A stretch of DNA of 64,000 nt. Source: Mucilaginibacter sp. SMC90. Lineage in GTDB: Bacteria; Bacteroidota; Bacteroidia; Sphingobacteriales; Sphingobacteriaceae. The stretch is from contig NZ_CP094527.1 of NCBI RefSeq assembly GCF_022811725.1, forward strand, positions 744,001 through 808,000, read 5' to 3'. The translations under genes and the position numbers were made by a program. Below the pieces are notes generated by a model, which saw only the letters and a list, made by a program, of their open reading frames with translations, ran no database searches and was not told the origin of the DNA. Shown piece by piece: positions 6,251-32,435 of the stretch (position 1 is the stretch's first letter; each line of letters starts with the position of its first letter).

Positions 6251-6727
6251 TTATTCCAGCGTTATTTGCCTCCTGATACTTTCTTCAAGCGAAATGAAGG
6301 TTTCGGTACGTTGAATACCTCTCACACCCTGGATCTGTTCATTCAAAACTTCGCGCAGGTGAGTAGTGTCATGACATACTATTTTAGCAAAAATACTCCA
6401 TTCGCCGGTAGTATAATGCAGTTCAACAATTTCTTTGATCGTTTTTAGCTGTTTCACAGCTTCGTTATACTGTGATCCTTTTTCGAGGTAAATACCCAGG
6501 AATGCTGTGATGTCATATCCTAATTTTTGCGGATCTACCTCAAGGCTGGCCCCTTTTATTACACCCATCTCCTCTAACTTTTTCATCCGCACGTGTATGG
6601 TTCCGCCAGAAACAATCAACTCTTTAGCTATCTCGGTATACGGAGTGGTAGCGTTTTTCATTAATATTGATAAAATCTGGATGTCAAGATTATCAATTTC
6701 TAAATTTTGAGCTTTTCTGTGGGACAT
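6251..6727 (-). CDS. Lrp/AsnC family transcriptional regulator
   Basis: The 158-residue protein has an N-terminal winged helix (about residues 10-60: LDIQILSILMKNATTPYTEI, then GGTIHVRMKKLEEMGVI) and a C-terminal ligand-binding RAM domain (about 70-150, including HYTTGEWSIFAKIVC). These regulators form octamers that bind amino acids. The gene faces away from the two tRNA-like RNAs, and the space between holds AT-rich palindromic and repeated sequence, a usual place for autoregulation. Control of the RNA unit by this protein is plausible from position only. The product ends with a glutamate-rich tail and has normal length for the family. Confidence 0.93.
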   Translation of the reverse strand: MSHRKAQNLEIDNLDIQILSILMKNATTPYTEIAKELIVSGGTIHVRMKKLEEMGVIKGASLEVDPQKLGYDITAFLGIYLEKGSQYNEAVKQLKTIKEIVELHYTTGEWSIFAKIVCHDTTHLREVLNEQIQGVRGIQRTETFISLEESIRRQITLE

Positions 6728-6744
6728 AAATTTGAATATCTATA

Positions 6745-6800
6745 TTGAAATACAAGTTTAATTAAAATTCAATTAAAAATAAAATATTTTTGTTGAAATA
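6745..6800. promoter_or_regulatory. AT-rich repeats between the Lrp gene and the RNA unit
   Basis: TTGAAATA occurs at 6745-6752 and again at 6793-6800, with AATTAAAATTCAATT-type near-palindromes between. Such A/T palindromes are typical Lrp-family sites; here this is inferred from position and composition only. Confidence 0.4.
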
Positions 6801-6832
6801 TTTGCAAGAAATAGATAGTCCTATTAAATTTG
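6801..6832 (+). promoter_or_regulatory. Bacteroidota-type promoter for the tRNA-like RNA unit
   Basis: TTTG at 6801-6804 and TAAATTTG at 6825-6832 match the -33 TTTG and -7 TAnnTTTG boxes, with 20 bases between. Transcription would start near 6838, about 40 bases before the first RNA. Confidence 0.65.
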
Positions 6833-6879
6833 TATCAAGCAAAAGGGAAATGCTTACCTGTTCTTTAAACGAAAAACAA

Positions 6880-6992
6880 TGTTGGGTGGTGAAATTTTTG
6901 GCAGACACACCTCCTTGTCCCGGTGGCGGAGATTATGGAAAACCCGTAAGGGCTAACCACTCTGTGAAGGTTCGAATCCTTCCCCAACAGCA
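6880..6992 (+). ncRNA. unusual tRNA-like RNA, copy 1
   Basis: The sequence folds as a type II cloverleaf. The acceptor stem is 6880-6886 with 6983-6989 (7 bp, starting T-A). T8 is followed by a 3-bp D stem (6889-6891 with 6906-6908) and a 14-base D loop that keeps GG. The anticodon arm is 6910-6914 with 6922-6926, with one T-T mismatch and loop TTGTCCC. The variable arm is long: CGGAG/CTCTG (6927-6931, 6960-6964), TGG/CCA, and CCC-GTAA-GGG. The T arm is perfect (6966-6982, loop TTCGAAT). The anticodon position reads GTC (Asp), which does not fit a type II body; C37 is also odd. GCA follows the acceptor, so CCA is not encoded. A degenerate tRNA-Leu is the main alternative; covariation with copy 2 argues against decay. 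Confidence 0.75.
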
Positions 6993-7067
6993 AGTTTAAG
7001 TACAAAGTCAGAAGTCTTGAGTCAAACGACTTAGAACTTCAGACTAACGACTTAAGACTTACAACAC

Positions 7068-7183
7068 TGTAGGATGGTGAAATTTTTGGCAGACACACCT
7101 CCTTGTCGCGGTGGCGGAGAAATTGGGAAACTTTTAGCAATAAAAATAACCACTCCGTGAAGGTTCGACTCCTTCTCCTACAG
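7068..7183 (+). ncRNA. unusual tRNA-like RNA, copy 2
   Basis: This has the same architecture as copy 1, 78 bases downstream. The acceptor stem is 7068-7074 with 7176-7182 and differs from copy 1 at positions on both sides so that pairing is kept. The D arm and anticodon stem are identical to copy 1; the anticodon loop is TTGTCGC. The first variable stem is CGGAG/CTCCG (7115-7119, 7153-7157), fully Watson-Crick where copy 1 has a G-T pair. The variable-arm tip is TTTTA-GCAA-TAAAA (7132-7145), unrelated in sequence to copy 1 but again a stem with a GNRA loop. The T arm is 7159-7175 with loop TTCGACT. It is probably processed from the same transcript as copy 1. Confidence 0.75.
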
Positions 7184-7218
7184 CTCTTCTCATAATTTAG
7201 GTTTATAATTGGTTAGTA

Positions 7219-7252
7219 AAGGCCCCTGCCCATCAGGGGCTTTGCTGTTTTT
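7219..7252 (+). terminator. Rho-independent terminator closing the RNA unit
   Basis: A GCCCCTG/CAGGGGC stem (7222-7228 with 7234-7240) extended by A-T and G-T pairs has a 5-base loop and is followed by T-rich sequence. Confidence 0.85.
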
Positions 7253-7315
7253 ATAGGTTTTTTTACCATGCTTCAGGCAAAAAAATATTGTAGCTTAGTA
7301 TCACAAGCTAATCTC

Positions 7316-30632: not shown

Positions 30633-30936
30633 GTTTGTACATTGTCTAAAGTGACTTCCCAGGGAAATTGCTTTTAATAATGTATGCCGATAGGAAGCGA
30701 ATGAATAATAAATTTTTACACTAATTTTTTCGAACTAATCGAATTACACGAATTTTTTAATTGATTAAATTTGAAATTCGTGGCATTTGATTAATTGTGG
30801 TAAGTATGAAAAATAATTCGTGTAAAAATTTCTTACTTCGATTTTATTAAACACATTAGATTATTAAAAAAACGATTTTCCTGAGCGATTTTCCCTATTT
30901 TATTTTTAACAAAAGAAACCTATCTTAGCCTCATCA

Positions 30937-30992
30937 AAAGGAAATGGTGTCTTCCTACTTAACCGCCCTAAAAAGCTGATGGCGCCTACAGA
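30937..30992 (+). promoter_or_regulatory. fluoride riboswitch (crcB motif)
   Basis: The stretch contains AGGAAATGGTGTCTTCCT (stem 30939-30943 with 30952-30956 around the ATGGTGT core), then TTAACCGCC, and GCTGATGGCGCCTAC (30975-30989). These match the order and conserved bases of the known crcB RNA: GATGGTGT-type loop, AACCGCC, CTGATGGC and CCTAC. The CGCC (30963-30966) and GGCG (30981-30984) segments can pair. It is placed just before a terminator and a CLC gene, which is the standard arrangement. A weak -7 box (TATCTTAG, 30921-30928) lies right upstream. Confidence 0.92.
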
Positions 30993-31001
30993 TAATTAAT
31001 T

Positions 31002-31052: not shown

Positions 31053-32435
31053 ATGCAAAATCAAATTTTTTCTTCTCAGCATTTCGCAATCCTTAAAAAC
31101 GCTCTCCGGTGGACGGTCATTGTTATTCCTATTGCAGTTGTTATAGGCAGCGCTGTAGCTTTGTTCCTGTGGCTTTTGAGTTGGGCCATTCATTTTCGGT
31201 TTGCTCATAACTGGTTGCTGTATTTGTTGCCGCTGGCGGGTATCGCCATATACTTCATCTATAAAATCTTCGGCGGTTCGGCAGAAAAGGGGAATAATTT
31301 AATTATTGACGAAATTCATAATCCTGGCGGCGGCGTTCCTAAGCGCATGGCCCCATTAGTGCTGATCACTACTATTATTACGCATTTGTTTGGCGGTTCG
31401 GCCGGACGCGAAGGTACAGCAGTACAAATGGGTGGGAGCTTAGCCCAAATGATAGGTAAATGGCTTAAGCTAAATGAAGCCGATACGCAAACGGTACTTA
31501 CCGCAGGTATAGCAGCGGGTTTCGGAGCTGTGTTTGGCACACCATTAACAGGTGCTGTTTTTGCTATGGAAGTATTAACTATTGGCCGGGTGCAGTATAG
31601 CGCCTTACTTCCATGTCTTATTGCAGGCATTGTTGGTGATGTTACGGTGGCCGCCTGGGGTGTTCATCATACGCCTTACCATATTGATATTATCCCTGTT
31701 ATTCCGCATTGGTTTTCGGGCTATATTTCAACTGATCTGTTGCTGATCATTAAAACTATAGTAGCTTCTATCGCTTTCGGGCTGGCCAGTTACCTGTTTG
31801 CGAAAATGGTTCACGGTATTAAAAGTTTTTTTTTCAAACACGTAAAAAAGCCCTGGCTTATCCCATTTATCGGCGGGCTTATTATTATTGCGCTTACCTT
31901 TATAAATGGCAAGCCCGATTATTTAAGTTTAGGTGTAGATGCCGAACATGTGGGTGCTGTTACTATTCCATCAGCTTTCCATGCCGGCGGTGCCGATACC
32001 TGGAGCTGGCTTTGGAAAACCATTTATACCACCGTAACCTTAGGTACAGGTTTTAAAGGCGGCGAAGTAACGCCGTTGTTTTATATCGGCGCTACTTTGG
32101 GCAATACCTTATCCGGCTTGCTCAATGCTCCTGTAAGCCTGTTTGCTGCTTTAGGTTTTATTGCAGTTTTTGCGGGAGCAACCAATACTCCGTTGGCCTG
32201 CACTTTTATGGGCATAGAGCTTTTTGGTGGAGAGCATGCGCTTTTGTTTGCCATAGCCTGTTTCACTGCTTATCTTTTCAGCGGGCATACGGGCATTTAC
32301 GGCTCCCAAAGAATAGGGGTAACTAAGTCAAATGATGGCCCGGCCGATGATAAAACACTTTCAGATGCCATGAAAAGGCGCGGGTATTTATATCAGAAAC
32401 TGGCAAAATATAGTTTCCTGAAAGGGAATGCGTAA
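31053..32435 (+). CDS. CLC-family channel/transporter, probably fluoride exporter
   Basis: The 460-residue protein has about eleven membrane segments and CLC motifs: PGGGVPKRM in place of the usual GSGIP, GREGT (118-122, gating Glu120) and GFKGGEVTPLF. GREGT with loss of the GSGIP Ser is known from the CLC-F clade, which moves F- out by exchange with H+. The fluoride riboswitch directly upstream supports this. It should protect the cell from fluoride. The encoding mRNA leader carries a switch and terminator, so expression should depend on fluoride. No Fluc/CrcB gene is in the window. A chloride channel is the main alternative but does not fit the riboswitch. Confidence 0.9.
   Translation: MQNQIFSSQHFAILKNALRWTVIVIPIAVVIGSAVALFLWLLSWAIHFRFAHNWLLYLLPLAGIAIYFIYKIFGGSAEKGNNLIIDEIHNPGGGVPKRMAPLVLITTIITHLFGGSAGREGTAVQMGGSLAQMIGKWLKLNEADTQTVLTAGIAAGFGAVFGTPLTGAVFAMEVLTIGRVQYSALLPCLIAGIVGDVTVAAWGVHHTPYHIDIIPVIPHWFSGYISTDLLLIIKTIVASIAFGLASYLFAKMVHGIKSFFFKHVKKPWLIPFIGGLIIIALTFINGKPDYLSLGVDAEHVGAVTIPSAFHAGGADTWSWLWKTIYTTVTLGTGFKGGEVTPLFYIGATLGNTLSGLLNAPVSLFAALGFIAVFAGATNTPLACTFMGIELFGGEHALLFAIACFTAYLFSGHTGIYGSQRIGVTKSNDGPADDKTLSDAMKRRGYLYQKLAKYSFLKGNA

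Follow-up and report, generated by a model that had tools for sequence, protein, structure and literature searches.

A predicted family of tRNA-like RNAs with large variable arms in Bacteroidota and their phages

The described system that comes nearest to the RNAs reported here is tRNAOther of Bacillus cereus, a pseudo-tRNA (PMC3399842, Ataide et al. 2005). It is tRNA-like, is reported to be non-functional in translation, is regulated in its own right and influences gene expression; it carries a Trp anticodon, occurs in some bacilli only, lies within a longer Fur-regulated RNA and is poorly aminoacylated (PMC3399842). In contrast to the Bacteroidota RNA, no Lrp partner, extra arm domain or phylum-scale conservation is reported for tRNAOther. 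Another likeness is to the allo-tRNAs and non-canonical type II tRNAs, which also have a long variable arm and whose anticodons (GUC among them) need not predict the amino acid, but in allo-tRNAs, which are reported as translation-competent, the acceptor and T stems are 8/4 or 9/3 (PMC7609411), whereas the RNA described here has a 7/5 layout and does not keep the decoding features.

Among ordinary tRNAs, the closest relative by model score is the tRNA-Leu of Bacteroidota, which has a type II body too and a D loop of the same style (GGCAGAC); the Bacteroidota RNA differs from it in having G73 for A73, U1-A72, an Asp-type anticodon loop and a variable arm of 34–128 nt across the family. With tRNA-Asp it shares G34, U35, C36, C38, G2-C71 and G73, but it has a type II arm, U1-A72 in place of G1-C72, an unfixed position 10 and unconstrained positions 33 and 37. 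The combination of a tRNA domain with a large extra structured region is also found in tmRNA. Unlike tmRNA, however, the RNA keeps complete D and anticodon arms, no tag reading frame is seen in it, and two viral stretches that bear it have a separate tmRNA gene. As judged by comparison of sequences, these RNAs form a large unannotated family across Bacteroidota and their phages.

A tandem pair and its surroundings

The window (the whole stretch of 64,000 nucleotides that was analysed) comes from an 8.13-Mb genome of the genus Mucilaginibacter. An earlier note on this DNA had described two tandem cloverleaf units, and both are present, at 6880–6990 and 7068–7183; the acceptor stems, D arm, GTC anticodon arm, T-T mismatch, long variable arm and T arm that it listed are all found in each of them. 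The features of the locus are as follows.

6251–6727, minus strand: Lrp/AsnC-family regulator gene (Pfam AsnC_trans_reg, 4.8e-18, and HTH_24)
6793–6807, no strand: imperfect palindrome TTGAAATATTTGCAA of 15 bp, a possible Lrp site
6825–6832, plus strand: predicted promoter -7 element TAAATTTG, of the Bacteroidota TANNTTTG type
6860–6869, plus strand: boxA-like GTTCTTTAAA in the leader
6880–6989, plus strand, with discriminator G73 at 6990: tRNA-like unit 1 (covariance model R1, 127.5 bits; pair counts)
Parts of unit 1, plus strand: anticodon loop 6915–6921 with GTC at 6917–6919; variable arm 6928–6963; T arm 6966–6982
6991–7067, plus strand: inter-unit spacer, its first base the encoded C74, with a long hairpin
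7068–7182, plus strand, with discriminator G73 at 7183: tRNA-like unit 2 (R1, 133.5 bits; pair counts)
Parts of unit 2, plus strand: anticodon loop 7103–7109 with GTC at 7105–7107; variable arm 7116–7156
7184–7216, plus strand: trailer CTCTTCTCATAATTTAGGTTTATAATTGGTTAG, nearly identical across all Mucilaginibacter copies
7217–7255, plus strand: intrinsic-terminator-like hairpin GGCCCCTGCCCATCAGGGGCTTTGCTGTTTTT, from the sequence

The Lrp/AsnC gene is divergent from the tRNA-like genes and transcribed away from both. The predicted promoter consists of TTTG (6801–6804), a spacing of 20 nt and the -7 element, and the right half of the palindrome overlaps the TTTG, which would be the -33 element. 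Signals of these kinds recur in the relatives described below: the TANNTTTG element is found in 127 of 175 regions upstream of arrays (background 3.7%), and a terminator-like hairpin lies within 160 nt downstream of 135 of 178 arrays (background 24%). GTTCTT occurs within 150 nt upstream of 71 of 175 arrays, compared to a background of 6%, and a similar GTTCTTTTAA stands in the leaders of all four 16S genes of the same genome; with this frequency, a boxA as a universal element of the family had to be rejected. In two loci of a second class of Bacteroidota (L306 and L307), each tandem unit is preceded about 10 nt upstream by its own GTTCTTT or a close boxA-like motif. The palindrome TTGNAAWWWTTNCAA, with 0–1 mismatches, occurs in 48 of 115 intergenic regions and about 2% of shuffles, which is weak evidence because the motif was derived from the same intergenic sequences on which it was counted. 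A wider regulon could not be traced by the palindrome, given five other near-matches in the genome and four for a control pattern; one of the near-matches (L311), after an outer-membrane-receptor-like gene, gives no lead.

The core of the trailer, AGGTTTATAATTGGTTAG, is also present in other Sphingobacteriaceae, and a pairing between its GGTTAG and the CTAACC in the variable arm is conceivable. The spacer hairpin is built from AAGTC-type repeats and is far above shuffles (z -4.97); spacers between units vary widely among relatives. Elsewhere in the window, a fluoride riboswitch (30931–30995, plus strand, 48.3 bits) lies directly upstream of a gene at 31053–32435 that, from its sequence, we take to encode a ClC-type channel.

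Automated annotation tools return little at this locus. ARAGORN called zero tRNAs in the window, and Rfam, the use of which the earlier note had proposed, gave no match at gathering score at the two units or on eight long-form loci; at a relaxed threshold only chance matches and a partial tRNA T-arm match of 14 bits were obtained, and beyond this RF00005 does not detect the units. The family thus appears to have been overlooked because tRNA detectors and Rfam miss it, and a search of the open-access literature gave no description of this RNA.

Structure and distribution of the family

The fold energies of the single units do not differ significantly from chance (z -0.37 and -1.52), and therefore the structural claim rests on comparison. 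Across 93 distinct sequences, cloverleaf covariation is 0.477, whereas shuffling gives 0.183 and sliding no more than 0.162, with pairs formed in 98.0% of cells and 23 pairs changed on both sides, in an alignment that was fitted to the model, includes seven background rows and so leans towards structure. A MAFFT alignment of the first 15 sequences gives 8 doubly changed pairs and 96.0% pairing, and an alignment of viral copies gives a covariation of 0.570 (0.153 in the comparison). The layout is canonical, with an acceptor stem of 7 bp, anticodon and T stems of 5 bp each, and TTCGA as the T loop of nearly all members, in agreement with TTCRA. G73 and G2-C71 are found in 226 of 226 copies and U1-A72 in 225 of 226, while position 10 can be A, G or T and the 11-24 pair is mostly U11-A24.

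In the long forms, the variable arm contains a structured domain of about 90 nt. Its elements are a helix, an internal loop (GGAUAAAC/GCUAAC type) and two hairpins, of which the second, UGG-GG-UNGA-CC-A-CCA, has a bulged A that is conserved; the domain includes the hairpin GGGUUGACCAC. Most of this long-arm structure is recovered by unguided RNAalifold, with 18 of 23 pairs doubly changed, and its covariation is 0.509 (0.237 in the comparison) in an alignment that was not fitted to structure. In many members, those of the window included, the domain is reduced to a simple hairpin. The selection on structure that had been proposed from the two copies is thus borne out by covariation in both the cloverleaf and the long variable-arm domain. 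Other proposed features are local: the homologues of unit 1 have loops other than GNRA at the tip of the variable arm, so that the GNRA cap is an accident of this locus, and the T-T mismatch of the anticodon stem holds for Mucilaginibacter and Pedobacter relatives but not for most other members, in which the stem is fully paired.

By DNA search, homologues of almost full length turned up in nearly all of the 24 other Mucilaginibacter genomes, mostly as the same tandem pair. A covariance model, built from 15 sequences and run on 395 genomes of the class, separated two score groups, namely long homologues (107–175 nt, 64–133 bits) and ordinary tRNAs (about 80 nt, up to about 59 bits), the latter mostly tRNA-Leu where checked; one further long homologue scored lower at first and reached 101.7 bits at full length. 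The contigs named belong to the orders Sphingobacteriales, Chitinophagales and Cytophagales, and two genomes of the second class of Bacteroidota have triple tandem copies. The earlier note had named, as a refutation, a covariance model that detects no further instances; more than 200 distinct copies were found, and this refutation fails. A search of plasmids for the family gave no match.

The most frequent neighbour of the arrays is the Lrp/AsnC gene, which adjoins 123 of 186 bacterial arrays, upstream and divergent, with several of the remaining 63 cut by contig or locus ends; no other neighbour gene comes near this frequency. Its identity was 51–100% in 44 of the 69 loci first measured, and 63% in the second class. 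Among 50 chosen genomes, a match to this Lrp was found in 15 of 15 that bear the RNA, mostly away from the array (these genomes having been picked partly for that position), and 28 of 35 genomes that do not bear the RNA have no Lrp match of at least 50% identity. Since the genomes in this count are not phylogenetically independent, the co-occurrence is a strong association rather than statistical proof. Genomes with a close Lrp and no RNA, searched again with laxer filters, still gave no RNA, except for a reduced version in one (L283, 1501–1576). This 76-nt version has no long arm, a loop CTATCTC, an acceptor TGTGGGG and G73; ARAGORN calls it tRNA-Asp(atc), and the genome retains lrp.

Some loci may record the loss of the system. 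In one of the 15 RNA-bearing genomes (G184), an Lrp pseudogene with five in-frame stops lies beside the most degenerate RNA copy (L277, loop CGTTCTA), which suggests joint decay. In three Sphingobacteriaceae loci (L253–L255) lrp is kept and the cloverleafs are missing; what remains is a promoter box, a terminator-like hairpin and the trailer core, as AGGTTTATAATTGGTTAG or in a closely similar form, and this suggests that units were lost from a pre-existing transcript.

Viral copies were sought in IMG/VR with a 28-base pattern, which matched 60 contigs, and 59 copies were confirmed with the covariance model at 55–95 bits; the contigs that were checked encode terminase, DNA polymerase and a DnaB-like helicase. 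A search of annotated phages returned a single, unannotated record of 636 kb. Of the 59 copies, 23 have an ordinary tRNA on their own strand no more than 30 nt away (typically 4 nt), and some are inside arrays of more than 20 tRNAs; these viral arrays include a normal tRNA-Asp as well, and the copies often adjoin tRNA-Ser. The viral acceptor stems are diverse, with U1-A72, G2-C71 and G73 kept, and a GACCAC hairpin motif occurs in 47 distinct viral sequences; both lie outside the search pattern and are therefore unbiased, whereas the viral anticodon loops are biased by it. The viral stretches fetched gave no Lrp, so the link to this regulator is not needed everywhere, and no conserved phage protein partner recurs in more than 14 of the 59 loci. 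An extra hairpin inside the D loop (L322, L334, L346, L369 and L375) is frequent in viral copies. One viral stretch (L322) carries about 24 tRNAs together with a tmRNA; in another (L338), 26 nt separate a tmRNA from the tRNA-like RNA.

Synthetase recognition, maturation and decoding

The determinants of bacterial tRNA-Asp are G73, G10, G34, U35, C36 and C38, with G2-C71 as a minor element and G1-C72 conserved (PMC9976931). The loop set G34, U35, C36 and C38 is complete in 88 of 93 sequences that were not selected by the GTC pattern, so that, together with G73, the strong determinants of the aspartyl-tRNA synthetase (AspRS) are all found. G1-C72 and a fixed G10 are not: U1-A72 stands instead, position 10 varies, and the activity of AspRS on this RNA could thus be weak. 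A few members carry CTC, TTC or ATC instead of GTC; the training of the covariance model on sequences with GTC may have left divergent anticodons under-sampled. The SerRS set of G73, C72, C11-G24 and a large variable region is found in part only, with A72 and mostly U11-A24. A spare AspRS-like synthetase is not evident in this genome, which has three PF00152 genes only; we take this to be the number expected for the Asp, Asn and Lys enzymes, which are not individually identified.

The positions next to the conserved set behave differently. U33 is present in 69 of 93 tRNA-like sequences (at 74% still the commonest base at this position) and in 328 of 329 ordinary tRNAs from the same collected loci, which served as the control set; for a purine at position 37 the counts are 14 of 93 and 326 of 329, and both occur jointly in 11 of 93. 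The second class has A33, and its anticodon stem is changed in a paired manner to CCGTC/GACGG. That the AspRS loop set is kept while positions 33 and 37 vary argues for conservation that follows recognition by a synthetase and not by the ribosome. With both positions free to vary, decoding by this RNA is improbable, which makes a decoding tRNA of unknown type, one of the options in the earlier note, unlikely and supports its option of a non-decoding tRNA-derived RNA; the bait of its third option returns below among the rival readings.

At the 3′ end, the base after G73 is C74 in 226 of 226 copies, and just 22 of them encode CCA. Where ordinary tRNA genes of these loci were inspected, most also stop at N73-C74, so that the missing CCA, which had been listed as an oddity, is the local norm. 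Together with the spacing of about 4 nt from phage tRNAs, C74 after G73 leads us to infer tRNA-like processing and CCA addition. Overall, the earlier reading is partly supported; it had missed the AspRS set, the neighbouring Lrp/AsnC gene, the copies in phages and the large arm domain of other members.

Possible roles of the RNA

With doubt and confidence evenly balanced, we propose a matured non-decoding RNA, charged by AspRS (most likely with aspartate), with a partner for its arm, that works in an Lrp/AsnC circuit and is also borne by phages. Specifically, tRNA-processing enzymes would cut the precursor, and CCA would then be added; AspRS would recognise G34-U35-C36-C38 and G73 and charge the RNA, most likely with aspartate; the charged RNA would probably stay outside codon reading; and the structured variable arm would bind a real partner. 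The divergent Lrp/AsnC regulator, linked to the RNA in bacteria, probably controls it, and this linkage places the RNA in an amino-acid-responsive circuit, where, as an aspartyl-RNA, it may act as a sensor or a carrier without taking part in decoding. Phages would bring their own copies along with their tRNA sets. The more far-reaching version, in which this is an undescribed, phylum-wide class of non-decoding tRNAs, charged by AspRS, with a binding domain in the arm, coupled to Lrp/AsnC and useful enough in infection for large phages to carry copies, is more tentative and in our view somewhat doubtful.

Other readings account for part of the same evidence. The complete cloverleaf with its tRNA-type 3′ end, the phage copies embedded in decoding tRNA sets and the U33 of most copies could belong to an unusual decoding tRNA, that is a tRNA-Asp with a type II body that works on the ribosome, perhaps aided by its own arm-bound factor, as tRNA-Sec is by SelB; this is quite improbable, given that 24 of 93 sequences do not have U33 (all four bases being seen there), that 79 of 93 have a pyrimidine at 37 and only 11 combine U33 with a purine, and that viral arrays hold a normal tRNA-Asp besides. 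A decoy that accepts no amino acid and titrates AspRS or an anticodon nuclease for GUC loops, as counter-defence in phages and regulator in bacteria, would explain why conservation is confined to recognition elements and why phages carry the RNA, and tandem copies would raise its dosage. We regard it as unlikely: C74 and tRNA-type maturation signals would be superfluous for a bait, no recurrent nuclease or toxin adjoins the arrays, and it would be unusual for defence genes to be almost universal in one genus, as this RNA is.

If charging were irrelevant, the RNA could be a regulatory scaffold similar to tRNAOther, whose arm and trailer bind mRNA or protein under Lrp. The large conserved variable-arm domain, the linkage to the regulator, the conserved trailer of Sphingobacteriaceae, which survives where cloverleafs are lost, and the precedent itself (PMC3399842) point in this direction; yet the invariance of G34-U35-C36-C38-G73 and G2-C71 would go unexplained, the arm is just a simple hairpin in many members (as in the window), and phage copies lie in arrays that have no trailer, so that a scaffold and nothing else is hardly probable. 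Charging with serine, as for tRNA-Sec, is suggested by the long variable arm, by G73 and by the frequent position of viral copies beside tRNA-Ser. However, C72 and C11-G24 also belong to the bacterial Ser set (PMC9976931), where this RNA has A72 in 225 of 226 copies and mostly U11-A24, and the conserved anticodon loop would not be accounted for by SerRS; for want of C72 and C11-G24, SerRS is less likely than AspRS as the recognising enzyme, and a serine acceptor very improbable.

If the RNA is indeed an AspRS substrate outside decoding, recognition by a synthetase and decoding, which are normally tied, appear to be separated here, and the role of charged tRNAs outside translation becomes directly testable, with the Lrp/AsnC linkage as a concrete pathway for such tests. 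Carriage by phages suggests that the RNA is important during infection, and it appears that a structured RNA carried by many Bacteroidota genomes and by dozens of phage contigs has, as far as the open-access literature goes, gone unnoticed.
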